Virus record (IMG/VR): IMGVR_UViG_3300006868_000114 | Location: 1 to 23,512 of that record | From: a virus | DNA length: 23,512 nucleotides | Direction: 5' to 3' (one strand) | In this document: piece after piece, positions 3,974-21,389 of the stretch | Layout: every line of letters begins with the position of its first letter | Numbering within the stretch: position 1 is the first letter of the stretch | Position numbers and translations under genes: made by a program | The notes under the pieces: model-generated | What the model saw: the letters and a program-made list of their open reading frames with translations, nothing else | Told to the model about the DNA's origin: nothing | The model's database searches: none

Positions 3974-4243
3974 GTGAAAAAAACAAGAAGTATATTAGAA
4001 GAGTTAAATTCTATCAGTGTTGATAGGAATAAACACCATATTCTTGAAAATCGTGTAGAGCATTTAGTTTCTAGTGCCGCAAATATCAAAAAAACATTGT
4101 ATGAGCTATATGACAACGAAACTGCACTAGATCTAGAGCGTAGACTTATAAACAGTCTCAAAAGCGGTGACTATATGAAATTTTCACGAGGCATAAAGAA
4201 AATTGTAAAAGAGAGCACCGATGAGAATCAACGAGATAAATGA
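3974..4243 (+). CDS. Hypothetical helical protein, 89 aa
   Basis: This is a small, charged, mostly helical protein beginning MKKTRSILEELN from a GTG codon. AAGGA at 3960-3964 lies 9 nt upstream and decides the start. Residues 25-60 carry a heptad-like pattern (ILENRVEHLVSS, then TLYELYDNETALDLERRL), suggesting a short coiled coil or helical bundle. There is no membrane segment and no catalytic motif. It is the first gene after the late promoter at 3943 and overlaps the next gene by 23 nt. The family is not recognised. An early ILE|E could be a prohead-protease-like site, but the leader motif seen in its neighbours is only weakly present. Confidence 0.62.
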   Translation: MKKTRSILEELNSISVDRNKHHILENRVEHLVSSAANIKKTLYELYDNETALDLERRLINSLKSGDYMKFSRGIKKIVKESTDENQRDK

Positions 4244-5129
4244 AGCACCTCAAAGTAGGGCAAGACAACAGTTTCTAAAAAACAAACAAAAGCGAAACTT
4301 TCAGCAAGGTGCTGTTCAATCTATGGGCAGAATTGCTCAAATGGCAAGGCAAAAAGCCGCTACTAGAGATTATCAATCGTCAGAAATAAAATTACCAGAC
4401 GGTAGAACTTTTAGTAATTCCGCACAGGGCTGGATTGAGGTTGACCCAAAAACCAAACAACCAGCACAAGGTGCTGTTCATTTAAGTCCAACATCCAGTC
4501 AAGCAAAACAGTTAGATAAGTATTATGCTAATAAAGGACAAGAACCACAGGGTTTTGTTGATAAATTAAAATCTAAGTTTAACCAAGCAATTGGCGGCGA
4601 ACTTGCAACCAAAACTAAAGCAGACCCAAATGCCAATGTGTGGAAGAGAACAGGTGCCACAGCAGGTGCAGGCATTGGTAGAGCAATGGGCAATTTATTG
4701 AGAAGTAAACCTCAACCAGATCAACCCACTGATAAGAAAGCAGTAGCAAATGTAGCAAAAACAGATTTAACATACTTACAAAAAAAGGTTATGAGTGGCG
4801 ACGAGCAAGCCGCACAACAATTTGTTGATAGATTATCTCAAATGAAATCTCAGAATGTTGACATCAGTAATTATGCCGCAACATTACCTGCTATGCTAAA
4901 AAGAACTAAAATGGACAAACAAAGTCCTGCTTATCAAGAACTTGTTAAAGTAGCAAGAAGTATGAGCAGAGAATCATTTGAACATGTAAATAAAGTATTA
5001 GAATATGCTGGCATTACTTGGGAACAATTAGGTTACAAAGTTCTTATTACAGAATCACAATCAGATGTTGTTTTAATACCCCAAAAAGATTTAGAGTTAT
5101 TTGAATACAAAGTATTAGCAGGAGTTTAA
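4221..5129 (+). CDS. Putative internal virion protein with capsid-targeting-like leader and glycine zipper
   Basis: This 302-aa protein of unknown family starts MRINEINEA. It has the leader pattern shared by several late proteins here, with a predicted prohead-protease-type site I-N-E|A after residue 8. Residues 10-45 are rich in Gln, Arg and Lys. Residues 50-75 read EIKLPDGRTF then GWIEVDPKT, a short beta-rich segment. A perfect glycine zipper follows: G145, G149, G153 and G157 at 4-residue spacing, inside TGATAGAGIGRAMG, preceded by Trp-Lys-Arg. The C-terminal half is helical (YLQKKVMSGDEQAAQQFVDRL). It overlaps the upstream gene by 23 nt and is followed after 1 nt by the next gene. Packaging in the head and membrane contact at ejection are inferences from the leader and zipper. 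Confidence 0.6.
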   Translation: MRINEINEAPQSRARQQFLKNKQKRNFQQGAVQSMGRIAQMARQKAATRDYQSSEIKLPDGRTFSNSAQGWIEVDPKTKQPAQGAVHLSPTSSQAKQLDKYYANKGQEPQGFVDKLKSKFNQAIGGELATKTKADPNANVWKRTGATAGAGIGRAMGNLLRSKPQPDQPTDKKAVANVAKTDLTYLQKKVMSGDEQAAQQFVDRLSQMKSQNVDISNYAATLPAMLKRTKMDKQSPAYQELVKVARSMSRESFEHVNKVLEYAGITWEQLGYKVLITESQSDVVLIPQKDLELFEYKVLAGV

Positions 5130-5130
5130 A

Positions 5131-6426
5131 GTGAAATTTGTAGAAATTTCGAAACCACTTGTTACTCAACTACTTTCAGAAAGTGTATTATTAGAAGCCA
5201 AAGAAGGCAAAAACACTCACCTTGAACATTTAGAAGACAATATCTTTAATAAAGGTTTTGCAGGTGCAAAAGAAGCCGTAGACTATCTATACAGTTTACA
5301 TCAAATGTTAGAAGGAAACAGCAAAGCACCTGTTAGTATGACAACCAAATGGGACGGTGCTCCTGCTATTATTGCCGGCAAAGATCCACAAACAGGTAAA
5401 TTTTTTGTAGGCACAAAAGGTGTGTTTGCACAAAAACCTAAACTGAACTTTACCCCTCAAGACATTGAACGTAATCATGCTGATCAAGGTGATAAAGATG
5501 CTAGTGGTTTAAGAGATAAATTAAAATTAGCATTAAAATTTTTAGGTAGATTAAATTGGGACACAGTTGCACAAGGTGACATGCTGTTTGCTGGTCAAGA
5601 AGATATTAAAGAAATAAACATTGATAGCGAACCCCACATAGTTTTTAAACCAAACACAATCACATATGCTGTACCAAAAGACAGCGAGTTAGGTAAACAA
5701 ATTCAAAATGCAAGATTCGGTATTGTGTGGCACACAGAATATGTTGGCGGTCCAACACTAGCAGACACAACTGCTAAATTTGGTTTTGACAGCAGTGTGT
5801 TAGGTCAAGCCAATGGAGTATGGCACAGAGATGCTAGAATAAAAGATTTAAGTGGTACTGTAACCTTTACTAAAGACGAAAGTAACGATTTATTGAATAC
5901 TATAAGTGAGGCAGATAGTTATTTAAAAAGTATAGATGCTGACACATTCAGTTGGTTAGAAAAAGGCACTGATTTAATAGGCAAAGATTTCTTACAACAA
6001 TTAAAAGCACATGCAAACAATCAAGTACGTCAAGGATCATTTGATGAGCCTACAAAATTTGCACAAGGTTTTGTACAAAAGTATATAGATTTTATGACAA
6101 AAGAAATCAGTAAAGTTAAAACGCAAAAAAGTATAGATGCTAAAACTGCTAAAATGGTACAAGGTGTGAAATTTATCAAAGAACATGTACCTGGTATTGT
6201 AGCAGTATATGATTTATATTTAAAAATTATAGAAGCAAAAGTAAAAATTGTTAAAAAATTAGAACAAATTAGACAGATAGGAACTTTCATTCAAAGCGAT
6301 AAAGGATTAGAAGTAACCGGCGAGGAAGGTTTTGTTGCTGTAGACAGAATGGGTAATGCTCTTAAATTAGTAGACAGATTAGAGTTTAGTAGATTAAACT
6401 TTGGTTCAGGCAAACCGGGAGCATAA
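5131..6426 (+). CDS. DNA/RNA-ligase-like nucleotidyltransferase with capsid-targeting-like leader
   Basis: This 431-aa protein carries motifs of the covalent nucleotidyltransferase (ATP ligase/capping enzyme) superfamily. Motif I is KWDGAPA with candidate nucleophile Lys73. FGIVWHTEYVG in the middle resembles motif III. EEGFVAV (398-404) followed by LKLV (411-414) resembles motifs IV and V. Residues 290-390 form a helical insert. The N-terminus MKFVEISKPL with LSE|S (residue 17) and LLE|A (residue 22) carries two possible prohead-protease sites, as in neighbouring proteins. Translation starts at GTG 5131, supported by AGGAG at 5120-5124. It overlaps the next gene by 1 nt. A nucleic-acid end-joining enzyme packed in the capsid is a reasonable inference; the exact substrate is unknown, and the motif assignment is by eye only. 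Confidence 0.6.
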   Translation: MKFVEISKPLVTQLLSESVLLEAKEGKNTHLEHLEDNIFNKGFAGAKEAVDYLYSLHQMLEGNSKAPVSMTTKWDGAPAIIAGKDPQTGKFFVGTKGVFAQKPKLNFTPQDIERNHADQGDKDASGLRDKLKLALKFLGRLNWDTVAQGDMLFAGQEDIKEINIDSEPHIVFKPNTITYAVPKDSELGKQIQNARFGIVWHTEYVGGPTLADTTAKFGFDSSVLGQANGVWHRDARIKDLSGTVTFTKDESNDLLNTISEADSYLKSIDADTFSWLEKGTDLIGKDFLQQLKAHANNQVRQGSFDEPTKFAQGFVQKYIDFMTKEISKVKTQKSIDAKTAKMVQGVKFIKEHVPGIVAVYDLYLKIIEAKVKIVKKLEQIRQIGTFIQSDKGLEVTGEEGFVAVDRMGNALKLVDRLEFSRLNFGSGKPGA

Positions 6427-7196
6427 TGTACGAATTTAAACTTATAAATCAAGAGCTCGCAGAAAGTAGACTGTACAGAACTACAGGCAGTTTTTCGAGA
6501 TTGTCTGGCAGAGATATTGCCGATTTATTTTATTTGCAAACATTATCTACATACATGTTTGTTCTAGACAATAAACAACATGATTATGGCATTGCATATG
6601 CAACTAAAACATGTCAATATGGACCATATGCAGTTTTTAGAACAGCCGCAACAGATTTATATCTACTAGGATTTGTAATCAATAATCCAGATTACGGTAA
6701 TTTAAAAATATCTGGTTCGGATAGATCTCTATTAAAATCCCTATCATTTCAAAACAGAAAGCATTTCATGTTTATGCAAAGACTTGCAAAAGATGCTGTA
6801 AGCAAAAGTGATGCAACTACATTTTTATTTAGATTAGAAACACAATTAAAAATAGAAAATCCAATATTTAAACAAATGCGAAGATTGATAGTTGAATGGC
6901 AAAGTTTAAAATTTTCTCAAAGACAGATGATTATAAGTAAATTATTACAAAATATTAGATCAAAAGGTAGGGGTAGTGAAATTTTCACACACATAAGTTC
7001 AATGAGTACAAGAAGAGAACTTAAACCTTTACCACAAAAATCAGATACATTAAAACGTGCGGCGGCAACAGCAATTGGAGCCTATGCAGGAAGTAAAGTA
7101 CTTCCAAAACTTACCAAAGGCAAACTTGGCTCAGTTAGCGGTGCAGGAATTGGTGCAGTAGCAGGATATTGGGCTAGTGGAAGAAAAAAAATATAA
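6426..7196 (+). CDS. Putative internal protein with C-terminal glycine zippers
   Basis: This 256-aa protein of unrecognised family begins MYEFKLINQELAES, with a possible L-A-E|S cleavage site after residue 13. Residues 20-110 are rich in aromatics (DIADLFYLQTLSTYMFVLDN), and residues 110-195 are basic and helical. The C-terminus holds two small-residue helices: AAATAIGAYAG (G218, G222), then G235, G239, G243 and G247 in an unbroken GxxxG series, ending ASGRRKKI-like basic (ASGRKKI). Such zippers are typical of membrane-inserting hairpins. The same GAGIG core occurs in the protein at 4221. Its start overlaps the upstream stop by 1 nt, and it overlaps the sulfotransferase gene by 20 nt. Membrane insertion during genome delivery is an inference. 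Confidence 0.58.
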   Translation: MYEFKLINQELAESRLYRTTGSFSRLSGRDIADLFYLQTLSTYMFVLDNKQHDYGIAYATKTCQYGPYAVFRTAATDLYLLGFVINNPDYGNLKISGSDRSLLKSLSFQNRKHFMFMQRLAKDAVSKSDATTFLFRLETQLKIENPIFKQMRRLIVEWQSLKFSQRQMIISKLLQNIRSKGRGSEIFTHISSMSTRRELKPLPQKSDTLKRAAATAIGAYAGSKVLPKLTKGKLGSVSGAGIGAVAGYWASGRKKI

Positions 7197-8061
7197 TTTT
7201 ATTTTACATATAGGACCACGCAGAACTGGCACTACATATCTGTACGACTTATTTCATCAGTCTCCTCTTCATATTAGGCAAAAAATAATGCCGGTAAATC
7301 CTTTTGAAATGTTAGATAAACATTTACAAAGATTGAATGATAATAAAATAACACCGGCTGTTTATCAAAATCAAAAAATGTTATTAAAAGAAGATGGTTT
7401 ACATCTAGGAGAAGGTTTTGGATTTTTGGAAAGTTTTTTCAACTCATATTATTCTTTTGAAATTCTTTTTGACAATTTCTTTAAACGATTTGAGCATAGA
7501 TTAAAGGATGATACACTGACTGAATATTTATATGTAACTAGACCTAATTTTTTACATTTTATGGATCCTGAAAAAATGTTTTTGTTTTTTAAAAATATGT
7601 CAATGAAATTTAAAACAGTTTACATTATAACAGGTTTCAGGCCAATAGTTGAAACAGTGGAATCACTGGCCAATTATGTTAGTTATACAGGATTAGAAAA
7701 TGCAAATTATTCAAATGAGAGTGAAACCACAATATTTCAGATGTTTGAGCAAACAATAAAAGAATACAGTAATTTAACATCTTTTACAAAAAGTGTTTGT
7801 GAAAAACAATGTTGCGGTGCAAATAATTTACATATAATTGCTTTGGATCATCTACGATTAAATAACAGTGAATATATGTATAATAAATTTAACTGGTTAT
7901 GGGAATCAGAACAACAATTACAAGAGATAGAAGCATTTGGAAAAAAATCTAATGCATCAAACGAAAATCAAACTTTACTATATCATCCAGCAACAACCAA
8001 ATTTAAAACAGAAATACAAGAACATGATGAGTTTTTAGATAAATACATTTATGCTAATTAA
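7177..8061 (+). CDS. Sulfotransferase family protein
   Basis: This 294-aa protein has the two PAPS-binding signatures of sulfotransferases. The 5'-phosphosulfate loop is HIGPRRTGTTYL (residues 11-22), and the 3'-phosphate loop is FRPIVETVES, with Arg155 and Ser163 in the canonical R-x7-S spacing. It would move a sulfuryl group from PAPS to an alcohol or amine acceptor, possibly on a glycan or lipid; the acceptor is unknown. Translation starts at GTG 7177, inside the end of the previous gene, with GGATATT upstream as a weak ribosome site. The gene is conspicuously AT-rich, with many TTT/TTA/AAA codons compared with the flanking virion-type genes. It sits between two genes with capsid-targeting-like leaders, which suggests a later insertion. 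No signal peptide is seen. Confidence 0.75.
   Translation: MEEKKYNFILHIGPRRTGTTYLYDLFHQSPLHIRQKIMPVNPFEMLDKHLQRLNDNKITPAVYQNQKMLLKEDGLHLGEGFGFLESFFNSYYSFEILFDNFFKRFEHRLKDDTLTEYLYVTRPNFLHFMDPEKMFLFFKNMSMKFKTVYIITGFRPIVETVESLANYVSYTGLENANYSNESETTIFQMFEQTIKEYSNLTSFTKSVCEKQCCGANNLHIIALDHLRLNNSEYMYNKFNWLWESEQQLQEIEAFGKKSNASNENQTLLYHPATTKFKTEIQEHDEFLDKYIYAN
8038..8045 (+). promoter_or_regulatory. T4-type late promoter, 5 nt before ATG
   Basis: GATAAATA lies inside the end of the sulfotransferase gene, exactly 5 nt before the ATG at 8051. By T4 geometry the transcription start would fall on or next to that A. No Shine-Dalgarno is present between them. The 14-nt string GATAAATACATTTA recurs at 19733. 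Confidence 0.55.
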
Positions 8062-8575
8062 AGATATCATACATGAAGCGGCCTCTCCAGAAGAATACAA
8101 GAGATTTGACAATGCTTATACTGGATGGTTAAAAGTTGCCGGACAACATTTTGATTCTGGGGCAAAAAGTTATGTTGCTAGTCGTGGAAAAGCAATATTT
8201 GGCGCCGGCGGAGTTAGCCCTACTGATGCAATATCAATGGCTTTAGAAGAATATCGAGCAAAAAAGAAAAAACGAAACAACACAACTGCTAAATCTACAA
8301 GTGCTAACATGACATACGGTGCAGACGATGATAACAAATCTATTTCAGTGCAACAACCTGCAGGTCAAGCAGGTTGGCAGGATAGAACGCACGGTCATTT
8401 GAGAACCAGAGGTAAAGTTTCTGATAAACTGAAACAGGCAATGGGCGATGTTGTACCAGATTTAACAAGTATGGACACAGCAGTAGGTAGTGGCATGGAT
8501 ATTGGTGATAATTTAGCGGGTAAACTTGATAAAGTAATGCAAATGGGCAACAAATACCGTAAATCACGTAGATAA
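8051..8575 (+). CDS. Putative internal virion protein with capsid-targeting-like leader, 174 aa
   Basis: The protein starts MLIKDIIHEAAS, the clearest match here to the T4-type capsid-targeting pattern, with I-H-E|A after residue 9. Residues 12-70 are helical with an aromatic patch (FDNAYTGWLKVAGQHF) and end in AKKKKR. A Ser/Thr/Asn-rich linker follows (residues 75-100). The C-terminal 70 residues are Gly/Asp/Met-rich and finish NKYRKSRR. There are no catalytic or membrane motifs. The gene overlaps the sulfotransferase stop by 11 nt but has its own late promoter octamer at 8038 and no visible ribosome-binding site, so it may be read from a leaderless mRNA. The family is not recognised; a head-packaged role is inferred from the leader. 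Confidence 0.6.
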   Translation: MLIKDIIHEAASPEEYKRFDNAYTGWLKVAGQHFDSGAKSYVASRGKAIFGAGGVSPTDAISMALEEYRAKKKKRNNTTAKSTSANMTYGADDDNKSISVQQPAGQAGWQDRTHGHLRTRGKVSDKLKQAMGDVVPDLTSMDTAVGSGMDIGDNLAGKLDKVMQMGNKYRKSRR

Positions 8576-9810: not shown

Positions 9811-10107
9811 ATGAGATTAAACGAACTTACAGAAGATACTATAATTGAAGCCAGAATGGTTTGGCGTAAAATGGGTAAAACTGTTAAACGTGCAGTACGA
9901 TGCACCAGTGGAAGACGCAAAGGTAGAGTAGTAAGTAATCCAAGTCAATGTCACAAACCTATTGACATGAAAAAAAGATTGACATTGAAAAAAACTAAAG
10001 CACGAATGGGTGCTAGAATGATGCGTAAAGCAAAAAGAACAAAAAGAATGAACCCTGCAAGTAGAAGAGTAAAAAGTTTAAATAGATCAACTAATAGGCG
10101 CAGATAA
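9811..10107 (+). CDS. Highly basic protamine-like protein with capsid-targeting-like leader, 98 aa
   Basis: The protein begins MRLNELTEDTIIEA, with possible protease sites L-T-E|D (residue 8) and I-I-E|A (residue 13). Cleavage would leave an almost wholly cationic remainder, dense in Arg and Lys and nearly free of acidic residues after residue 20. It contains a Cys pair, C31-x15-C47, within RCTSGRRKGRVVSNPSQC. Such composition suits binding and condensing DNA, as expected of T4-type internal proteins. The start at 9811 is chosen because a longer in-frame extension upstream overlaps the TM gene and is implausible in composition, while ATG 9811 gives the leader motif. Its stop overlaps the next ATG by 1 nt (TAATG). 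Confidence 0.7.
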   Translation: MRLNELTEDTIIEARMVWRKMGKTVKRAVRCTSGRRKGRVVSNPSQCHKPIDMKKRLTLKKTKARMGARMMRKAKRTKRMNPASRRVKSLNRSTNRRR

Positions 10108-13100
10108 TGAAGTTTAAAGATATAAGAACATTTCAGTCTATTTTAAACGAATACGGACTTAAACCAGGAACACCAACAGCAGTTGGAAGCCAGCAATCTG
10201 GTGCTAATGCAAAAGCAAATGCAGTTGCTAGTCCCACTGTGCAAAAACAAACACCTAAAAAAGATTTAGGCAGTCCAACAACTACTCCTGGCCTAAATGT
10301 TAAAGAGCCAGAACAGGAACAACCACAACAGCCAAAAATTGCAAAAGCAAGTGAATTAGAAAAAGATTTTGAATTTGCAGATGACAAAGGCAATGCAGTT
10401 AAAGTAGTTAGCCCTGTTGGACAAGGAAAAAACAAAGATGCACTTATTGTGCAAAATCAAAAAAGCAAAGAATTTTATACAATACAACCGGACGACGAAA
10501 TTGAATTGCCTATGGAAGAAGGCAAACTAGGAACATTGATTAAAAAGTCAGGATCAGGGATAAAATTTAAAAACAAAGATCGCGCCGGTTTAAAAAGATT
10601 AGTTAGAAAAAACAAACTTCGAGAGCAAGGCGAAGAACTGATTTTTGAAATCAACTTTAACAGTAAAGAAATTGCACAGCAGGCATTAGACCTTCCTATC
10701 AAATGTGGCTTTGAAGCAGAAACTTCATGGGACAATGTGTATGGTAGCAGTGATGATGACGAAGGTGAATGGCTATACGATTATGGCTGGTATGATATCG
10801 AAGACTTTATACACGATCAGGAAGGTAGCAGATCTGTCAATAGAGTTGAAGAGAGTTATAATGAATGGATACTGGAAGGTCCAGCATTGGAACTTGAAAG
10901 TGACATCATTGATGAAATGGTTAGCGACCGCGAAGAAGATGAATACTATCTCAACAAGTACATAGAAGATGAACTTAGCGAAGATGACATAGAAGAATAC
11001 AAAGAACGCATATTAGATGACTTACCAAAAGAAGACCAAGAAGAATACGAAGATTGGGACTTTATGAACTGGGGTCGTCAGTATGTGGAAGAAGAATTAT
11101 TAGACGATTACAAAGATTGGTTAAGAGAAGATATCCGCGAAAATGGCGAAGCATTTGACGATGCTATTGATAGAGCTCGATCAGAGTATGATATGGACTA
11201 CTGGGCAAATGAAGAATACGGTAGTTGGATTAGTTGTTTAAGTGAGCATGATATCTATTTGTACGATCCAAACCGTGGAGGCGAAGGTGGTGGCCAAGAA
11301 GAAGTTGCAGACTATCTGACAGACTGGACAGACAAAAACAGTCAATATCAAGTAGTTCAAGCAGGAGAATATCACAGTAGAGCAGGTGACACCACTCAAG
11401 ATTACTGGCGTGTAGAGGATGACAGCAGTATTCAAACAGATGGCACAGGCTCTGAGATCATTTCACCGGTGTACAGCACACCCAGAAAAATGCTGGAAGA
11501 AATGAAAAGCCTATTTGCATGGTTAGAAAATCAAGATGTAGACACCAACAGTTCAACTGGCTTGCATGTGACCATGAGTTTAGACAGTGAAGAAAAAGAA
11601 GAAATAAATCCAGTTAAACTTGCAGTATTGTTGGGTGACAAATATTTACTCAGCACATTTGGCAGAGAAAACAACAGTTATGCTAAAAGCCAATATAAAA
11701 ATTTAGAAAAGTTAGGTCACAAATTAAAAGCAAATCCAGATGCTAAAACTATAGAACAAATTGAAGATATTTTAAGTTCAGGCATCAGCAGAGACAAGTT
11801 TAGCAGTATCAATTTCAAAGGTGATTCGGATATAAGAACAGGTAATCAACTGATCGAATTCAGAATTGGTGGCGGTAATGACTATCACAGAGATTTCCCC
11901 AAAGTAGCAAAAGCAGTCATTCGTTATGCCACAACGATGCAATCAGCATACAGTGATAAACTTTATACTCGTGACTATGCAACAGCATTGTACAGGCTGA
12001 TCAACAACATAGGCAAAATCAGTGCAGATGACGAAGAACGAGTCAAATACAGAATCAATCCTGATGTAGAAGCACCAGCAGTTGATGTGTTAAAAGACTA
12101 CTTCAGCAAAGACAATTATGTAGAGCACCTGAGATATCTTGTCGCGGCATACAACACACTTGCTGAATATCATACTGTAAAAAATAAAACAAACGAAGAT
12201 GTTGAAACTGATGGTCCTGATGCTGACAGATTACAAGATTTATTGAAAAAAGCTCAAAGAAACTTTGCAGGTGCCATTGCACAAGCAGGATATGATCTTA
12301 GCCAAGGACATAACCGTGCAACACCAAATGCAAAAAGCATTGGTATATTAAGATCAGCACTCAAAGACTTTGAATTAGATTATGACAAATTGAACAGTTT
12401 AATAAATGGTCACCACACTAAAATTGATACTGGTAACAGTAGAAGCAATTTAACACCCAAACAGATATTGGGTAGAATTAAAAATGGTGTGGACAAACTG
12501 TTCAAGAAATCAGTTGTTCAAGAACCAGAATATTTAACAGCCAACCAAGTGGAAAAAATGATCACAGGCATGTGGAATGCTGTACACAGCGGTGAATTAC
12601 AAGACGGCCAACAAGCAATAAAGTTTGCAAAACTGTTAGCAGATGCCGCAAACACAACCACAGACTATGCCGCGTCTTGGCTGGATCAGGTAAACAGCGG
12701 TCGTAGAGGCAGAGAATATAAAGAATTCCACAAATCAGTTACACAAGGTGGCTACAGCGAGCAAGCAATGTTTACGCCCGGCAGTCCAGTAGACTCCAAA
12801 AAACTAAAAGCATTCCAGGACCATCTCAAACAGTATCCAGAGTGGGAACATCCTGTAAGCAAGGATCATGATCCAAGAAGGTCCTCATTTGACGACAGTT
12901 ATGTAGATAATGCACTCAGTAAAATGATGATCAAGATGCGAACTCGTTGGGATCACTTGGAAGATATCAGAGAAGAGAATCCAGGCTTGTACATTGATAG
13001 CATGAGAGAGATTGCCAAGTTAGTTACTAATCTTGTTGATGCTGTTAAAACCAAAGATCATGAGATGGGAGACAAGCACAAAGATCTACTAGGCACCGAA

Positions 13101-16046
13101 CATGCACATCACAGAGATGGCCCCCAATATTTTGGAATGGGCGAACGCACCGCAGAACAAATAATGGATATGGTTAAAGGCATTGAACAACCTAATGCTA
13201 GAATGGTGTGGGACGATCCTGTAGCACATCAATTGCGTGACAGTATGCAAAATTATATTCGTTCTGCTTATTCTAGATACTACGAAATGAAACAACGTGG
13301 AGGCGATGGCTTCTATCGTTTAGGGCCTGTTCCAGAAATCATCAAGCAGAGAACAGATGCTATCAAAGAATTTTTAAGTGGCTTTGACAAAGTAGCACAA
13401 AGTCACGGATTTGACAGCCAAAGCAGTGAAATTGCCAACAAGAAACAGTTAGACAAACAGCAAGCAAAGTTCCAGAAAAAACATGGACCACAAACATTCA
13501 AAGTGCATGCATTTGATTTTGGTGGATATATATTTGCAGAAAAAGGTTTTGCACAAGGCTTACCGCACCTGGCACCAGAAGGCGTTGCAAGGGCTCTTCA
13601 GCAAACCAGCAACATACACCGCACTGATTATGGTGAACTGTTGATAATGCCCACCATACACTACTTCACTGCATTACAAGCATCAAAGATGTTAGCAAAC
13701 CCTGATCAGTATAAAGATACTTGGCGTTGGGAAAAAGCACAGGCAGTGCTGAGAAAATTTGAAAGCACATACAAAATAAAATTTAATGATCTTTCTGAAA
13801 AATACATCGACATCAATGATGACAATCAGAAAGTAAAATCTGAACTTCAACAACAAAATGTCGAGTTCACAAACAAATTAGGTGACGGCAGAGAAGGCGT
13901 AGGAAAATTTGGCCCGCTGATACCCAGAGCAGAACTTAACGGACCAGATGGCGAGCCATTTGAACCAAGTTCTGCAGTGACATGGCGTATAAACAAAGAT
14001 AACAAAAAAGCCGGTACAGCATCTGATAGTCAAGCACTTAATGATTTTGCCAAAGCCAGAGAAAACTTCAGAGAGTTTGATTACATGATGAACAACGGCA
14101 TACAGCAGTATGTCAAAGACAGTGAAAAGCAAGATTTAGTTGCGTTCTTAAACAATGAAACGCAAGTTGATAGAGCAACAAAAGTACGAATGTTGATACA
14201 TATGATAAACAACGTTGATCGTGATATAAGAGAACCAATGCCAATCAGTCAAGCACTGGTGAGAGCAAAACCACAGAGTGAAAGTATGAATACATTTGAT
14301 AAATTTGATAAACTACCGCTAGAAGAGCAGTTGCGTATACTTGCCAAAGTGGATAAGAAAAAAATTGACGAAGCCTGGAGCAAAAAGTACAAGGACAGCA
14401 TCAACTGTAGCAATCCAAAAGGCTTCAGCCAAAAAGCACACTGTGCAGGCAAAAAGAAAACAGAAGCAGTGCTAGGACCTAATCCAACATCAACCAGTTT
14501 ACCTGGTTACATCAAAGCCATCAACGACATACTGCAATCCAACAGTCCAGTATTGAAGATGGGAGCAACTGGGGCTCACACCTTCACTGCTGATCCCGGC
14601 CAGTCTGTGACAAGTACCTCAGACATTATCACAGGGCAAGGCAAGGATCACAGTGGCAAAGACACTGAACAAGTGATTGCTAAGACACTGTGGAAAGGAC
14701 AATTAAAAACAACAACCGATTCTCCCACTGCTAAAAAAGTTGTTTTCAATCGAGGAGAAGTTGCAGAGGCATACCATGCACTGGCAGCGTTTGTGAGGTT
14801 TATCGCCAGACCCACCAGAGATATAACATTAGAAGATGTTGTAAAATGGATACCCAAACTGGAAAATGGTGTAACATATGATCTAAAAGTAGCTGATGCG
14901 GAGAACAAAGATTTAGCAGACGAGTTCTGGGTTACTGTGTCTCTTAAACCAGAGCAATGGACAGCATTCAAAGATCCTAATGCTGTGTTAGCAGACACAC
15001 CGTTTGCTAAAATTGCCAGAGACATCGTTGACGATGCTAACAGTGAAACAGGCAGACGTGCAGACGTGTATGCTACCAACGGTAGATATGATTTAGTGCG
15101 TGTGATAGGTGATGGTGTAAGTGGCGAAACAGAAACCAAAACTGATATTGAATTCGAAAACGAAACAGAAAAGAAATACAGAGGCTACAGCATCAAAGTA
15201 GGCTCAGTTAAACAGATACATCAAGTTGGCGGCGGCGCAATCTCTGGCGGAAGAAAAGCATCAGCAGAACAAAGATTTAGTATACTGCAAGACGAGTTAT
15301 TTGGTGTACACGGTAGATTCCGTATTGCCGACATCAGCGACGCCAAGGTTGCTTATCTAAAGGCAGCACAAGACGAAAGCGTTAAAGGTAGATTAGCGGC
15401 ACAAGAAATTGGTTACAAAGCCGCAGTGGAAAGTATCAACAACTTTATCAAAACAGACGACGACGAAAAGAAATATGTAAAGCTGTTGGCAAAAGCATTT
15501 AAGTTTTTCCAGGCACGAGACGATGATAGAATATTGTTAAAGCAGTTCACAGGCACAAAGAAAGGCACTTACATATTGGATCCAAAGAGATTTGACAAAC
15601 TACACCAGCAAGGTTTAAACTTGGTTGCAGTATACGATGAAGCCAAAGAAAATCCGGAAATGGCAATCATTGATCAAGACAGCAACAAGCGATTGGTCAC
15701 TTTCCGCACTTATAAGACTGCAGACGGTTACATGCGAAACTATATTGAAAAAGGCGACTTGTGGAAAGACTTGACTAATATTGCTAATGTAAAAGAAAGT
15801 GTGCGTGAAGGTGCTGTACCAGACAACAGCACTGTGAGAACACTGCGAGAGATACTCAGCAAGCCACTGTTGAGCGGAGACCTCAAAGGCCAGATGATTG
15901 CGTATACTGCTGTTCCTGATCCAAGTATGATCAGAGATTTCCGTTCTGCTAGAGCAATGGCAGGCGATCAACATGATTTACGTGATGTGTTACGCAGTTA
16001 CATAAAAGCAAAATTACATCCAGATGTGATGAGAAAGCTGAAATGA
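10107..16046 (+). CDS. 1979-aa multidomain protein with putative amidoligase domain
   Basis: The leader is MKFKDIRTFQSILNEYG, with possible L-N-E|Y cleavage after residue 15, then a Pro/Gln-rich linker (17-80). Residues about 195-620 match the glutamine-synthetase-fold amidoligase family (PF12224 type). KCGFEAET carries Glu203 and Glu205, DGTGSEIISP spans 445-454, STGLHV spans 483-488 with His487, and IEFRIGGG has Glu584 and Arg586. These enzymes form amide bonds between carboxylates and amines using ATP. A strongly acidic, Tyr/Trp-rich insert fills about 210-375. Residues 620-1400 are helical and unrecognised. A basic Cys-pair motif, CSNPKGFSQKAHC, spans 1434-1446. Near 1677-1700, TKTDIEFENE and YSIKVGSVKQ resemble the D...xxK core of a PD-(D/E)xK-like nuclease fold, weakly. 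It overlaps its neighbours by 1 and 4 nt. A virion-packed effector is inferred; alternatives are a structural or tape-measure-like role. Confidence 0.68.
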   Translation: MKFKDIRTFQSILNEYGLKPGTPTAVGSQQSGANAKANAVASPTVQKQTPKKDLGSPTTTPGLNVKEPEQEQPQQPKIAKASELEKDFEFADDKGNAVKVVSPVGQGKNKDALIVQNQKSKEFYTIQPDDEIELPMEEGKLGTLIKKSGSGIKFKNKDRAGLKRLVRKNKLREQGEELIFEINFNSKEIAQQALDLPIKCGFEAETSWDNVYGSSDDDEGEWLYDYGWYDIEDFIHDQEGSRSVNRVEESYNEWILEGPALELESDIIDEMVSDREEDEYYLNKYIEDELSEDDIEEYKERILDDLPKEDQEEYEDWDFMNWGRQYVEEELLDDYKDWLREDIRENGEAFDDAIDRARSEYDMDYWANEEYGSWISCLSEHDIYLYDPNRGGEGGGQEEVADYLTDWTDKNSQYQVVQAGEYHSRAGDTTQDYWRVEDDSSIQTDGTGSEIISPVYSTPRKMLEEMKSLFAWLENQDVDTNSSTGLHVTMSLDSEEKEEINPVKLAVLLGDKYLLSTFGRENNSYAKSQYKNLEKLGHKLKANPDAKTIEQIEDILSSGISRDKFSSINFKGDSDIRTGNQLIEFRIGGGNDYHRDFPKVAKAVIRYATTMQSAYSDKLYTRDYATALYRLINNIGKISADDEERVKYRINPDVEAPAVDVLKDYFSKDNYVEHLRYLVAAYNTLAEYHTVKNKTNEDVETDGPDADRLQDLLKKAQRNFAGAIAQAGYDLSQGHNRATPNAKSIGILRSALKDFELDYDKLNSLINGHHTKIDTGNSRSNLTPKQILGRIKNGVDKLFKKSVVQEPEYLTANQVEKMITGMWNAVHSGELQDGQQAIKFAKLLADAANTTTDYAASWLDQVNSGRRGREYKEFHKSVTQGGYSEQAMFTPGSPVDSKKLKAFQDHLKQYPEWEHPVSKDHDPRRSSFDDSYVDNALSKMMIKMRTRWDHLEDIREENPGLYIDSMREIAKLVTNLVDAVKTKDHEMGDKHKDLLGTEHAHHRDGPQYFGMGERTAEQIMDMVKGIEQPNARMVWDDPVAHQLRDSMQNYIRSAYSRYYEMKQRGGDGFYRLGPVPEIIKQRTDAIKEFLSGFDKVAQSHGFDSQSSEIANKKQLDKQQAKFQKKHGPQTFKVHAFDFGGYIFAEKGFAQGLPHLAPEGVARALQQTSNIHRTDYGELLIMPTIHYFTALQASKMLANPDQYKDTWRWEKAQAVLRKFESTYKIKFNDLSEKYIDINDDNQKVKSELQQQNVEFTNKLGDGREGVGKFGPLIPRAELNGPDGEPFEPSSAVTWRINKDNKKAGTASDSQALNDFAKARENFREFDYMMNNGIQQYVKDSEKQDLVAFLNNETQVDRATKVRMLIHMINNVDRDIREPMPISQALVRAKPQSESMNTFDKFDKLPLEEQLRILAKVDKKKIDEAWSKKYKDSINCSNPKGFSQKAHCAGKKKTEAVLGPNPTSTSLPGYIKAINDILQSNSPVLKMGATGAHTFTADPGQSVTSTSDIITGQGKDHSGKDTEQVIAKTLWKGQLKTTTDSPTAKKVVFNRGEVAEAYHALAAFVRFIARPTRDITLEDVVKWIPKLENGVTYDLKVADAENKDLADEFWVTVSLKPEQWTAFKDPNAVLADTPFAKIARDIVDDANSETGRRADVYATNGRYDLVRVIGDGVSGETETKTDIEFENETEKKYRGYSIKVGSVKQIHQVGGGAISGGRKASAEQRFSILQDELFGVHGRFRIADISDAKVAYLKAAQDESVKGRLAAQEIGYKAAVESINNFIKTDDDEKKYVKLLAKAFKFFQARDDDRILLKQFTGTKKGTYILDPKRFDKLHQQGLNLVAVYDEAKENPEMAIIDQDSNKRLVTFRTYKTADGYMRNYIEKGDLWKDLTNIANVKESVREGAVPDNSTVRTLREILSKPLLSGDLKGQMIAYTAVPDPSMIRDFRSARAMAGDQHDLRDVLRSYIKAKLHPDVMRKLK

Positions 16047-16888
16047 AACTGTTTGAAGTAGCACACAAAGGCATACCACGCAGTCAAATGCCACAGATAC
16101 ATGTAGACGATATCAAGGATGACTTTGGATATCGCCAAGGCAAGCTATCCTTGAAAAAAATGAAACCTGTGCAAACAGAGCGTGTGGAATCTGAATATAA
16201 AAAAGCAGTACAAAAAATCAAGAACAAACAAGCAAAGCCAATATTACTAGACAAACAGCTACGCATAGTAAACGGGCACCATAGATATGATGCATACAGA
16301 CATTTGGGTTTTGACAGCGTTCCTGCTGTGATTGTTGATGCCACACTAGAAGATCTTATGAGCAAGTATCAACACACCACAGAAGAAGCAGGCGCTGGTG
16401 CAGGCGGCGGAGCCGCAGGTGGTACTGGCGGTGCAACAAGTTCAAGTGGCGACAGCGGGTCTGCAGATTCCGGAGACGCAGGAGACAGTGGCTCCGATTC
16501 TGCTGAAGCCACTCCTCCACCAAGCAGAGGAATTTTTTATGTAGGCGGGTTTGCACCATACAAGTCATCTAACAAGAAAAAGAAGAAAAAGAAAAAATCT
16601 TCAGTGGAGTTTGGCAAGAGCGTATATGAAGTTGCAGTCATAGACGACTATGGTGACATGGTGGAGTATGAGCTGGTAAACAAAAAGCATGTCAGTAAAA
16701 GTGTAGACGAAAACTTTGCTGACGGTAAGAAGAAAGGCAAAAGCCGTCCTGGCAGAGTCAAAAAAGCAGGAGCCAGTTGCAAGGGTTCAGTTACAGATTT
16801 ACGAGCAAAAGCAAAAAAGTACAGTGGTGAGAAGGGTAAAATGTATCACTGGTGTGCCAACATGAAAAGCGGCAAAAAGAAAAAGTAA
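16043..16888 (+). CDS. ParB/sulfiredoxin-like domain protein with basic C-terminus
   Basis: This 281-aa protein starts MKLFEVAHKGI, matching the first part of the shared leader but without a clear [IL]-x-E site. Residues 60-100 hold a ParB-like signature: KPILLDKQLRIVNGHHRYDA with Asn77, His79, His80 and Arg81, then LGFDSVPAVIV. ParB-like folds bind or hydrolyse nucleotides or nick DNA. A Gly/Ala/Ser/Asp low-complexity linker spans about 115-165, then eight consecutive Lys at 178-185. The C-terminus is basic with a Cys pair, C246-x24-C271, around KMYHWC. The gene overlaps the giant gene by 4 nt and ends the unit started at 9121. Its domain order (enzyme-like fold, flexible linker, basic tail) suits a DNA-bound, head-packed protein, which is inference. 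Confidence 0.68.
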   Translation: MKLFEVAHKGIPRSQMPQIHVDDIKDDFGYRQGKLSLKKMKPVQTERVESEYKKAVQKIKNKQAKPILLDKQLRIVNGHHRYDAYRHLGFDSVPAVIVDATLEDLMSKYQHTTEEAGAGAGGGAAGGTGGATSSSGDSGSADSGDAGDSGSDSAEATPPPSRGIFYVGGFAPYKSSNKKKKKKKKSSVEFGKSVYEVAVIDDYGDMVEYELVNKKHVSKSVDENFADGKKKGKSRPGRVKKAGASCKGSVTDLRAKAKKYSGEKGKMYHWCANMKSGKKKK

Positions 16889-16895
16889 TTAAATA
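16888..16895 (+). promoter_or_regulatory. Variant late promoter, 5 nt before ATG
   Basis: ATTAAATA differs at one core position from NATAAATA and lies exactly 5 nt before the ATG at 16901, with no Shine-Dalgarno. Its downstream half is identical to the strong copy at 18856 across 16 bp, which supports it as a promoter-derived sequence. It is weaker by match. Confidence 0.42.
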
Positions 16896-16905
16896 CTTGT
16901 ATGAA
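16890..16905 (+). repeat. 16-bp direct repeat, left copy
   Basis: TAAATACTTGTATGAA here is identical to 18858-18873. Both copies span the end of the late promoter octamer, a 5-nt spacer and a start codon. They flank the methyltransferase-glycosyltransferase pair. Confidence 0.75.
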
Positions 16906-17527
16906 TATTCAACATATTTGGCAAGTCAATGATATTCAAGTCTTTTATAATCCTCAAAACGATGGCGGCGGCAGAACGTTTGCTATAGATTACATAAACT
17001 ATCTTCAAAATCAAAAATATAATCATGTGCTAGAATGGTGTGCAGGCCCCGGTTTTATTGGCTTTGCTCTATTAGCATCAGGTATATGTAATCATGTAAC
17101 TTTATTAGAATGTGATGAAAATGCTATTATAGATATAAACAATACACTTGACAGTAATCCACACATAAAAGATAACGTCACAGTAATACACACTGATAAT
17201 ATACAAAGTTTGTCAGAAACTCATCAATTTAATTTAATAGTTGGGAACCCACCTCACTTTAAACAATTTAATAGCCAGCAATATATGTTTTTTAAGAATA
17301 TCCCAAAAGAAACTTGGAATAGACTTGCAGTCGATAAAAATTGGCATATACACACTGAATTTTTTGCACACATTGATAAAAATATGTCTCAATTATGCGA
17401 AATTATTTTATTAGAGAATGTGCATAATAATGAAATCCATAAAATTGCAGAAAAATTTAATTTTAACATAGTATCGTCAACTGCCACAGAGTCAAACCAC
17501 GAACTTTTAAAAATTGTAAAATTTTAA
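16901..17527 (+). CDS. SAM-dependent methyltransferase, PrmC/RsmC-like
   Basis: This 208-aa class I methyltransferase has SAM-binding motif I at VLEWCAGPGFIGF (Glu45 to Phe52 core), an acidic ribose-binding strand at LLECDENA, and the catalytic NPPH tetrad at 116-119. [ND]PP[YFWH] occurs in enzymes that methylate planar amide or amino groups, such as glutamine of release factors (PrmC) or guanine/adenine in rRNA and DNA. The target here is unknown. The protein is close to a minimal catalytic domain. It starts 12 nt after the ParB-like gene with no ribosome-binding site but with a late promoter variant 5 nt before its ATG. It is AT-rich and, with the next gene, lies between two copies of a 16-bp repeat, suggesting an acquired cassette. 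Confidence 0.78.
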   Translation: MNIQHIWQVNDIQVFYNPQNDGGGRTFAIDYINYLQNQKYNHVLEWCAGPGFIGFALLASGICNHVTLLECDENAIIDINNTLDSNPHIKDNVTVIHTDNIQSLSETHQFNLIVGNPPHFKQFNSQQYMFFKNIPKETWNRLAVDKNWHIHTEFFAHIDKNMSQLCEIILLENVHNNEIHKIAEKFNFNIVSSTATESNHELLKIVKF

Positions 17528-19773: not shown

Positions 19774-21039
19774 ATGAAAATTGCAAATTTTAAAAAATCA
19801 GGTATTGTAAGAGTTAGGCAACTTAATTCATACCTAAAAGAAAATCATGGTGTTAAAGTATCAGGATTTCATACAAAATCTAAACTAGAAAATGTTAGAG
19901 AACAAGCAAATAATCATGTAGTTAGACTTAGAAACACTAACAAAAAATTTCAACTAGATCCTGAATATGCAAAGTATTTAGGTGTTAGAGACATTATAGA
20001 TGTAATGCTTGAGTCAGGCATGTATGCAGAAAGTCCTGCAATGAAAGAGATGAAAGGCATGCTGGTTGCAAGTGTTCAAAGTTTAATGGATAGTGGTTAC
20101 ACTGTAGATGAAGCAAGCAAAGAGTGTATGAACAGATTCCGTCAAGATTCCCGATTTGCATATGACGATGAATTTGTTTTACCGATTGTTTTAAAAGCCG
20201 CTAAAGAATATTATGAATCATCATGTGGTGGCTCCCATGAGTCAGTGGAAATGCCACAAACAGAATTAAATGAATTCTTGCTTGCAGAACTTGCAAAAGA
20301 ATGTGGTGTTGAAATATCAGATGTAGACAGTTTAAAAGCAATTGATGAAAAAATTGATACATTTGCTAGAGTGACTGGTAAAAGCAGAGACGCAGTAGTA
20401 GGCTTCCTTAACGGTTTAGAAGAAGATGCAGTAGTGGGTGGTATTCAAATGTTTGGCAAAAAAGTTGCAGAACAGAATGCATTTACTGGTGCAAGAAAAG
20501 ACGCGATTGCACAAGGTAAGGATGAGTTTGAAGTAGACGGCGAAACTTACAAAGTTACTGGCAACACTTCCGACGAGAAAAAACAAGCCAAAAAAGAAAG
20601 CATGTTTGACGATATTATCGACGAAATGATCACCGAGTCAAGTGTGGAAGAAGCAGAAGTTGTTATGGCGGCAAGAGCATTAGCAGATGATATTCAAGAT
20701 CAAATTGAAAGAATTGGTAGAATGGCTAATGAAGATGTTCCTGCTATTGCTGATCAAATGAGAGCAGAGTTTGGTGCTGAAGCGGCACAAGGATTTGTTA
20801 CTTCAATGCAATCAGCATTAGAAGCACATCTACAAAATTCTAAAAATGCCAAAGCAGAAATTGACAGTGCAATTGGTGGTTTAACAGGAGAGTCATCACT
20901 GGATACACCTGCAGGTGATATGGGATTAGAAGAACCATTGCCAACAGACGACATGGACATGGATGCACCAGTTGATAATGTTCCAGCCGCGGCAGGTCCT
21001 GAAGAAGAACCATTGGGCAGAGCACCAGTAGAATTATAA
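19774..21039 (+). CDS. Putative virion protein, 421 aa, acidic C-terminus
   Basis: The basic N-terminus begins MKIANFKKSGIVRVRQLN. Residues 70-150 are helical (DIIDVMLESGMYAESPAMKE). Near residues 232-262 lies NAFTGARKDAIAQGKDEFEV then GETYKVTG, a pattern (AR..G...F.W.G..Y.T) recurring in many phage structural proteins. DDIIDEMITESS around residue 285 resembles an internal I-T-E|S prohead-protease site. Residues 290-370 form a long helix, and the last 50 are Asp/Glu/Pro/Met-rich with repeated GLEEPLP and PEEEPLG-like elements. The start is supported by GGGAA upstream and the late promoter at 19733. It overlaps the next gene by 1 nt. A structural or scaffold-like role is inferred; no catalytic motif is seen. 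Confidence 0.6.
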   Translation: MKIANFKKSGIVRVRQLNSYLKENHGVKVSGFHTKSKLENVREQANNHVVRLRNTNKKFQLDPEYAKYLGVRDIIDVMLESGMYAESPAMKEMKGMLVASVQSLMDSGYTVDEASKECMNRFRQDSRFAYDDEFVLPIVLKAAKEYYESSCGGSHESVEMPQTELNEFLLAELAKECGVEISDVDSLKAIDEKIDTFARVTGKSRDAVVGFLNGLEEDAVVGGIQMFGKKVAEQNAFTGARKDAIAQGKDEFEVDGETYKVTGNTSDEKKQAKKESMFDDIIDEMITESSVEEAEVVMAARALADDIQDQIERIGRMANEDVPAIADQMRAEFGAEAAQGFVTSMQSALEAHLQNSKNAKAEIDSAIGGLTGESSLDTPAGDMGLEEPLPTDDMDMDAPVDNVPAAAGPEEEPLGRAPVEL

Positions 21040-21389
21040 TGAAAATTTCAGAAGTGTTGCTGTTTGAAGCATACTTTGATGATCTTAGAGTAGCAGTACT
21101 TGACAGATTAGCACAATTTGTTGGTTCAGATAATACAGAAATATCCACAGAAGAATTTAGATCGGCTCTTGCACAAGACGGTTTTTTAATGAGTGCTGAC
21201 GAATTAGTAGCCGCACTAAATGACATGCAGGTTGTATCTAATGCAACTATAGACTCAATTACTCCAGCAGGCAATATTCCAAACGACATGGTTGAGCCAG
21301 ATGTAGATCCGGAAGAGCCTGAAGTTGATGTAGGCAATATGGCTGGTGATCAAGCACTGTCCGCCGTAAAAGACCAATTACCCACATAA
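21039..21389 (+). CDS. Small acidic protein with capsid-targeting-like leader, 116 aa
   Basis: The protein starts MKISEVLLFEAYFDD, matching the shared leader, with L-F-E|A after residue 10. Residues 12-70 look like a helical, EF-hand-sized or winged-helix-sized domain (AVLDRLAQFVG, then STEEFRSALAQDGFLMSADE and LVAALNDMQVV). The last 45 residues are Pro/Asp/Glu-rich (EPDVDPEEPEVDVG). The ATG overlaps the previous stop by 1 nt, so it is probably translated from the same message. The family is not recognised. It pairs with the 421-aa acidic-tailed protein, and both may belong to the head interior, which is inference. Confidence 0.62.
   Translation: MKISEVLLFEAYFDDLRVAVLDRLAQFVGSDNTEISTEEFRSALAQDGFLMSADELVAALNDMQVVSNATIDSITPAGNIPNDMVEPDVDPEEPEVDVGNMAGDQALSAVKDQLPT

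Follow-up and report, generated by a model that had tools for sequence, protein, structure and literature searches.

What does the ORF at positions 5131-6426 of this viral DNA encode, and does its product wait for phage gene expression or arrive in the cell with the virion? The stretch analysed here (the window, 23,512 nucleotides) carries it on the plus strand, as do the motifs and tagged genes whose coordinates are given below; it specifies 431 amino acids, begins with GTG preceded by GGAG, and has stops throughout its reverse strand. The protein is a full-length member of DUF6267 (PF19782; E 2.6e-99, 333.6 bits against a cut-off of 27, residues 28-427) and also matches phrog_455 (E 1.5e-92), both of them families without an assigned function. 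A Pfam search gave nothing beyond DUF6267 and one chance match, an NCBIfam search gave no match, and a literature search found no paper naming DUF6267. Relatives were found by tblastn in 468 phage records, mostly of T4-like cyanophages, where the family is known as T4-GC 71; the others are pelagiphages, Methylophilales phages, and a few Vibrio, Stenotrophomonas and Pseudoalteromonas phages.

The original prediction, made from the letters alone, had recognized in KWDGAPA (from Lys73), EEGFVAV (398-404) and LKLV (411-414) the order of motifs I, IV and V of ATP-dependent ligases. All three are present, and their key residues are unchanged across an alignment of 77 dereplicated DUF6267 sequences, many of them ~30-45% identical to the window protein: K73, D75, G76, P78, K96, Q148, D150, H201, T202, Y204, E399, G400, V402, K412 and R416 are invariant. 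Motif I (K73-W-D-G, 5347-5358) supplies the predicted adenylylated lysine, K73; motif IV (E399-G-F-V, 6325-6336) is in register with E227 of T4 Rnl1, and motif V (K412-L-V-D-R416, 6364-6378) follows. While motifs IV and V are clear, the candidates for motif Ia (T95-K96, 5413-5418), motif III (Q148-G-D150, 5572-5580, on model strand 146-154) and motif IIIa (G197-IVWHTEY204, 5719-5742, on model strand 196-205) were placed by strands and invariant residues. The alignment also shows a near-invariant H30-x-x-H33-x-E35-D36 (5218-5238), directly after the N-terminal segment discussed below.

The motifs depart from the usual pattern in two places: an Asp replaces the usual Glu in motif III, and motif V has one Lys rather than two, so that catalytic activity is not certain. 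A degenerate ligase fold, kept for a structural role in the head or as part of its core, would accommodate these changes, the large helical insertion described below, and the position of the gene among capsid-tagged basic proteins. It is nevertheless very unlikely. In all 77 sequences, which include some at ~30% identity, motifs I, IV and V retain their catalytic Lys, Asp, Gly, Glu and Lys without exception, a constancy not to be expected from a purely structural use.

The closest sequence parallel is T4 Rnl1 (gp63), with KEDG at K99 where DUF6267 has KWDG, and EGYVAV...FKI where DUF6267 has EGFVAV...LKL; the 13 residues from E399 to K412 equal the spacing from E227 to K240 in Rnl1. The best local profile match to the Rnl1 family, LEVTGEEGFVAVDRMGNALKL against a segment of 21 residues, falls exactly on the Rnl1 motif IV-V region. 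By itself this match is weak: hhalign of DUF6267 against Rnl1 gave E 0.07 over 21 columns, which is not significant, and against Rnl2 it gave nothing. The positive control, Rnl1 against Rnl2, two recognized members of a single superfamily, failed as well, so sequence profiles cannot decide the matter. A phmmer search for solved relatives found none, and the alignment profile returned chance matches of coiled-coil type only. DUF6267 also differs from Rnl1 in its motif III Asp, its single motif V Lys and its capsid tag, in lacking a C-terminal domain of the Rnl1 type, and in having neither a Pfam nor a significant profile match to that family.

AlphaFold models of the window protein (pLDDT 86) and of a syn9-type relative (pLDDT 93.4) both have the nucleotidyltransferase fold of RNA and DNA ligases. 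With VIA-align, the window model matched the Naegleria RNA ligase first (Z 8.7, 182 residues, 3.8 Å), then T4 Rnl2, T4 Rnl1 and Trl1 (each Z 7.1), with DNA ligases at Z ~6, mixed with unrelated helical matches. A helical insertion between motifs IIIa and IV (residues 248-380, 5872-6270; from model secondary structure) is shorter in syn9-type relatives. Foldseek found no significant PDB match for the window model, its top rows being helical proteins that match this insertion, and chance matches; the syn9-type relative was folded for this reason. All 50 of the structural matches listed for that second model are ligase-superfamily enzymes, RNA ligases leading (Naegleria RNA ligase Z 8.5, T4 Rnl1 Z 7.8), and its leading Foldseek matches are ligases too, none below E 0.07.

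Naegleria gruberi RNA ligase is thus the best match of both models (Z ~8.4-8.7 over 172-185 residues), though it is a eukaryotic enzyme, its part before residue 143 is unaligned, and identity is 9-13%; for Rnl1 the scores across both models are Z 7.1-7.8. Z values of 8-9 are modest and the Foldseek E-values are not strong, but no unrelated fold competes with that of the ligases. On these models, DUF6267 very probably belongs to the covalent nucleotidyltransferase (ligase/capping) superfamily, as had been proposed for this protein: both align best with RNA and DNA ligases. From fold and motif register together, we infer a position for Lys73 within the nucleotide pocket.

Would such an enzyme join DNA or RNA? 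The original prediction was that a head-packed ligase could seal nicks in the incoming genome, circularize it, or act on host RNA. DNA ligases close on duplex DNA by means of an OB domain; the window protein ends 15 residues past motif V, after a single helix (416-425 in the model), and neither model nor sequence has an OB-fold or other C-terminal substrate-binding domain there. As a DNA ligase, DUF6267 could be either such a packaged enzyme or a replacement for gp30 in T4-like cyanophages, and its gene in cyanophages does lie between those for the gp41 helicase and the gp61 primase. The structural matches do include DNA ligases, T4-like cyanophages have been reported to lack the gp30 DNA ligase (PMC2984593), and a search of 14 DUF6267 records showed that 12 lack a PF01068 match and all lack one to PF01653. 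Against this stand, besides the absence of an OB domain, the higher structural ranking of RNA ligases, a packaging tag that is unexpected on a replication enzyme, the lack of a T4-GC 71 gene at the syntenic locus of S-SM2, and the separate PF01068 DNA ligase encoded both by a 340-kb relative of the window and by Vibrio phage EniLVp02. A DNA ligase is on balance unlikely, but for the clades without gp30 it is a live idea that DUF6267 supplies the DNA ligase missing from cyanophages. RNA ends are favored over sealing or circularizing of the genome because RNA ligases rank first structurally and these two phages encode a normal DNA ligase; that the substrate is RNA, rather than DNA or something else, has about even odds.

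The second question concerns the N-terminus. The internal head proteins of T4 are made with an N-terminal propeptide, 10-19 residues long, that is cut off after (L/I)-x-E; for IPIII, targeting is sensitive to positions 4 and 7, and processing to positions 8 and 10 (PMC9026906). The two prohead-protease-type sites noted earlier in the window protein are indeed there (a slash marks the candidate cut in what follows). A 17-residue candidate capsid-targeting sequence, MKFVEISKPLVTQLLSE (5131-5181), ends at L15-S-E17/S, and the second candidate site, L20-L-E22/A (5182-5196), is found in several, not all, relatives; residues 7-26 of the model have pLDDT <50. Counting of (L/I)-x-E sites gave 17 of 18 members of the window's clade (4.0 expected, maximum 9 in 2,000 shuffles), in the longer form MKFVEISKPLVTQLLSE/S, and 33 of 39 members of an intermediate clade (3.7 expected by shuffling, maximum 12), or 50 of 57 in the two together, counts that are inflated within each clade by the relatedness of its members. 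The T4 positional pattern (F/Y/L at 4 and 7, L/I at 8, E at 10) is found in 29 of the 39 intermediate-clade proteins, exactly in 17 and shifted by one in 12. Their N-termini include MKNFRQFLTE/S, MKSFQTFLNE/A, MNRFAQYISE/A and VFSFTGFLTE/A, with a conserved N-x-H-L-E-H motif following within a few residues.

As in the T4 internal proteins and Alt, then, there is a short propeptide ending in (L/I)-x-E, and many members agree with the T4 pattern at the key positions 4, 7, 8 and 10; the candidate cargo is a ligase-fold enzyme rather than an ADP-ribosyltransferase or a small basic protein. The S-CAM9/syn9-type proteins lack the site in 19 of 20 members, so packaging is at best clade-specific. A gp21-type prohead protease (Peptidase_S77) is encoded by the 340-kb relative and in four other records, and the window fragment does not include one. 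A literature search turned up no detection of DUF6267 in virions and, for phages whose copy is tagged, no virion proteome; in S-SM1, whose virion has been analysed, the DUF6267 gene is untagged and annotated as hypothetical only. For the tagged members, the window protein among them, capsid targeting is likely on the evidence of the sequences. The DUF6267 family, and its combination of a ligase fold with a capsid tag, is previously undescribed; both parent superfamilies are known.

The proposal that the protein travels in the capsid gains from its neighbors, which carry the same kind of tag. Among dereplicated genes, the strict form of the pattern begins 21 of 469 from loci of the intermediate clade (1.7 expected, maximum 7 in 1,000 shuffles) and 24 of 250 from loci of the window's clade (0.8 expected, maximum 5 in 500), although many of these 24 probably belong to a single family, the one found where the window has 8051-8575; of the 37 members of a cluster at that position, 25 carry the strict tag. 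With a loose pattern applied to its whole genome, the 340-kb relative showed no enrichment of sites (18 against 14.3). In the window itself, the gene immediately upstream of DUF6267 (4221-5129, 302 aa) begins MRINEINE/A, and similar tags start genes at this position in related loci; the gene downstream (6426-7196, 256 aa) begins MYEFKLINQELAE/S. Further along are a 174-aa protein (8051-8575, MLIKDIIHE/A), whose copy in locus L001 fits the strict tag, a small basic protein with a relative in L011 (9811-10107, MRLNELTEDTIIE/A) and a 116-aa protein (21039-21389, MKISEVLLFE/A). A 1,979-aa protein with an Amidoligase_2 match (10107-16046) has a possible tag, MKFKDIRTFQSILNE/Y, and it is possible that this is a polyvalent capsid-borne protein. 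A weak sulfotransferase-like match (7177-8061) lies within this run of tagged genes but is itself untagged.

In related loci (L096-L159 and L001-L095), strict T4-like tags around DUF6267 are found on a P-loop kinase, HAD phosphatases and proteins of no recognized type, as well as on a fusion of an NMNAT-like domain, a RimK-type ATP-grasp and a Zn-protease. This recurrence suggests a cluster of capsid-cargo genes. Some of the cargo may already have been seen: NMNAT-like "cytidyltransferases" with the tags MKSFLQFLKE/A (S-SCSM1) and MKNFSSFLTE/A (S-CREM2) were detected by mass spectrometry in purified virions, and the NMNAT-like T4-GC190 was detected in virions of S-SM1, with the caveat, raised by the authors of the virion proteome, that co-purification is possible. 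A link between DUF6267 itself and the virion-detected genes S-SCSM1_90 and that of S-CREM2 was considered and rejected, there being no DUF6267 match in the stretches read.

Could the protein be an ordinary intracellular RNA ligase, its N-terminal site coincidental or there for some other purpose? T4 Rnl1 and Rnl2 are made after infection, (L/I)-x-E is short, and untagged clades exist. Yet the tag counts lie above every shuffle in two clades, and the tag recurs on unrelated neighbors, with tagged neighbors detected in virions, all of which makes such an explanation quite unlikely.

The reading preferred here, with a rough probability of 0.55, is that the DUF6267 protein is a packaged and injected enzyme of the ligase superfamily, targeted by its tag and trimmed by protease, and most likely acting on RNA ends. 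The N-terminal sequence would draw it into the prohead core, a T4-type prohead protease would trim it after E17 (or E22), and the trimmed enzyme would enter the cell together with the phage genome. In the cell, ATP would adenylylate Lys73, and the enzyme would then most likely seal or adenylylate RNA ends; tRNAs cut by a host anti-phage nuclease, for example, might be re-joined prior to phage gene expression. To our knowledge, few injected enzymes are known in T4-like phages, Alt being the classic case. If a ligase is indeed packaged, a phage would be able to bring in nucleic-acid repair as a finished protein before transcription starts.

The genes that accompany DUF6267 bear on what it might work with. 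In many cyanophage-type loci the next gene encodes an NMNAT-like (CTP_transf_like) protein, and in S-PM2 this protein is fused to DUF6267. (An older S-PM2 record divides the fusion into p138 and p139, L286:6971-8765; the 591-aa BFVD entry is unsplit.) In locus L128, a tagged Zeta_toxin/AAA_33 P-loop kinase and a tagged HAD phosphatase lie directly downstream of DUF6267, and kinase genes or domains are near it in HTVC008M, G004, G013 and G014. Kinase, phosphatase and ligase together recall the RNA end-healing and sealing enzymes of T4 (Pnkp, Rnl1). It can be proposed, tentatively, that marine T4-like phages inject a ready RNA ligase with other tagged enzymes (the NMNAT-like protein, and in some relatives the P-loop kinase and HAD phosphatase) as a virion-borne kit that repairs defence-cut RNA before transcription. 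A 2H phosphoesterase (LigT), sought as a further repair partner, had no match in 14 records.

The pairing of NMNAT and P-loop kinase is also reminiscent of NadR, which works in NAD salvage (PMC9503650), and the same neighbors suit a packaged nucleotidyltransferase that modifies a host protein, tRNA or nucleotide cofactor, with the NMNAT-like partner, in NAD-linked chemistry. The absence of an OB domain agrees with such a modifier, and the injection of a modifying enzyme has a precedent in T4 Alt (PMC9026906); the NMNAT-like gene beside DUF6267 in many cyanophage-type loci, the S-PM2 fusion, and the kinase and phosphatase genes nearby all fit. This is doubtful all the same: the nearest structures are end-joining ligases, the window has no NMNAT gene in the neighborhood of DUF6267, and no protein-acting example of the ligase superfamily was retrieved. 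T4-GC190, which has been detected in virions, resembles DUF6267 in tag type and in being a nucleotidyltransferase, besides being its neighbor or fusion partner, but it has a HIGH-superfamily fold unrelated to that of ligases.

Whichever substrate applies, a family that hundreds of marine phages carry, and that had no assigned function, now has a probable place in the ligase superfamily and in a class of putative capsid cargo. The tag pattern also predicts more such cargo in cyanophages, pelagiphages and their relatives from sequence alone.

Several other genes in these loci deserve mention in their own right. Upstream of DUF6267, or at that locus, in several cyanophages (L285:5559-7058, L083:6221-7951, L291:11459-12793) is a gene with the pattern KW(N/S)P(A/S)DI(W/Y)...VSLKK, which recalls a PD-(D/E)XK nuclease; Pfam finds nothing in the syn9 copy, and the S-SCSM1 copy is annotated as a virion protein. 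In the window, two tandem SGNH/GDSL-like DUF6071 proteins (1013-2568) have primase and helicase genes on either side. A ParB-like protein with a long Gly/Ser/Asp-rich linker (16043-17527) is followed by a small methyltransferase, and the protein at 19774-21039 matches phrog_14154, a virion structural protein (E 2.8e-14).
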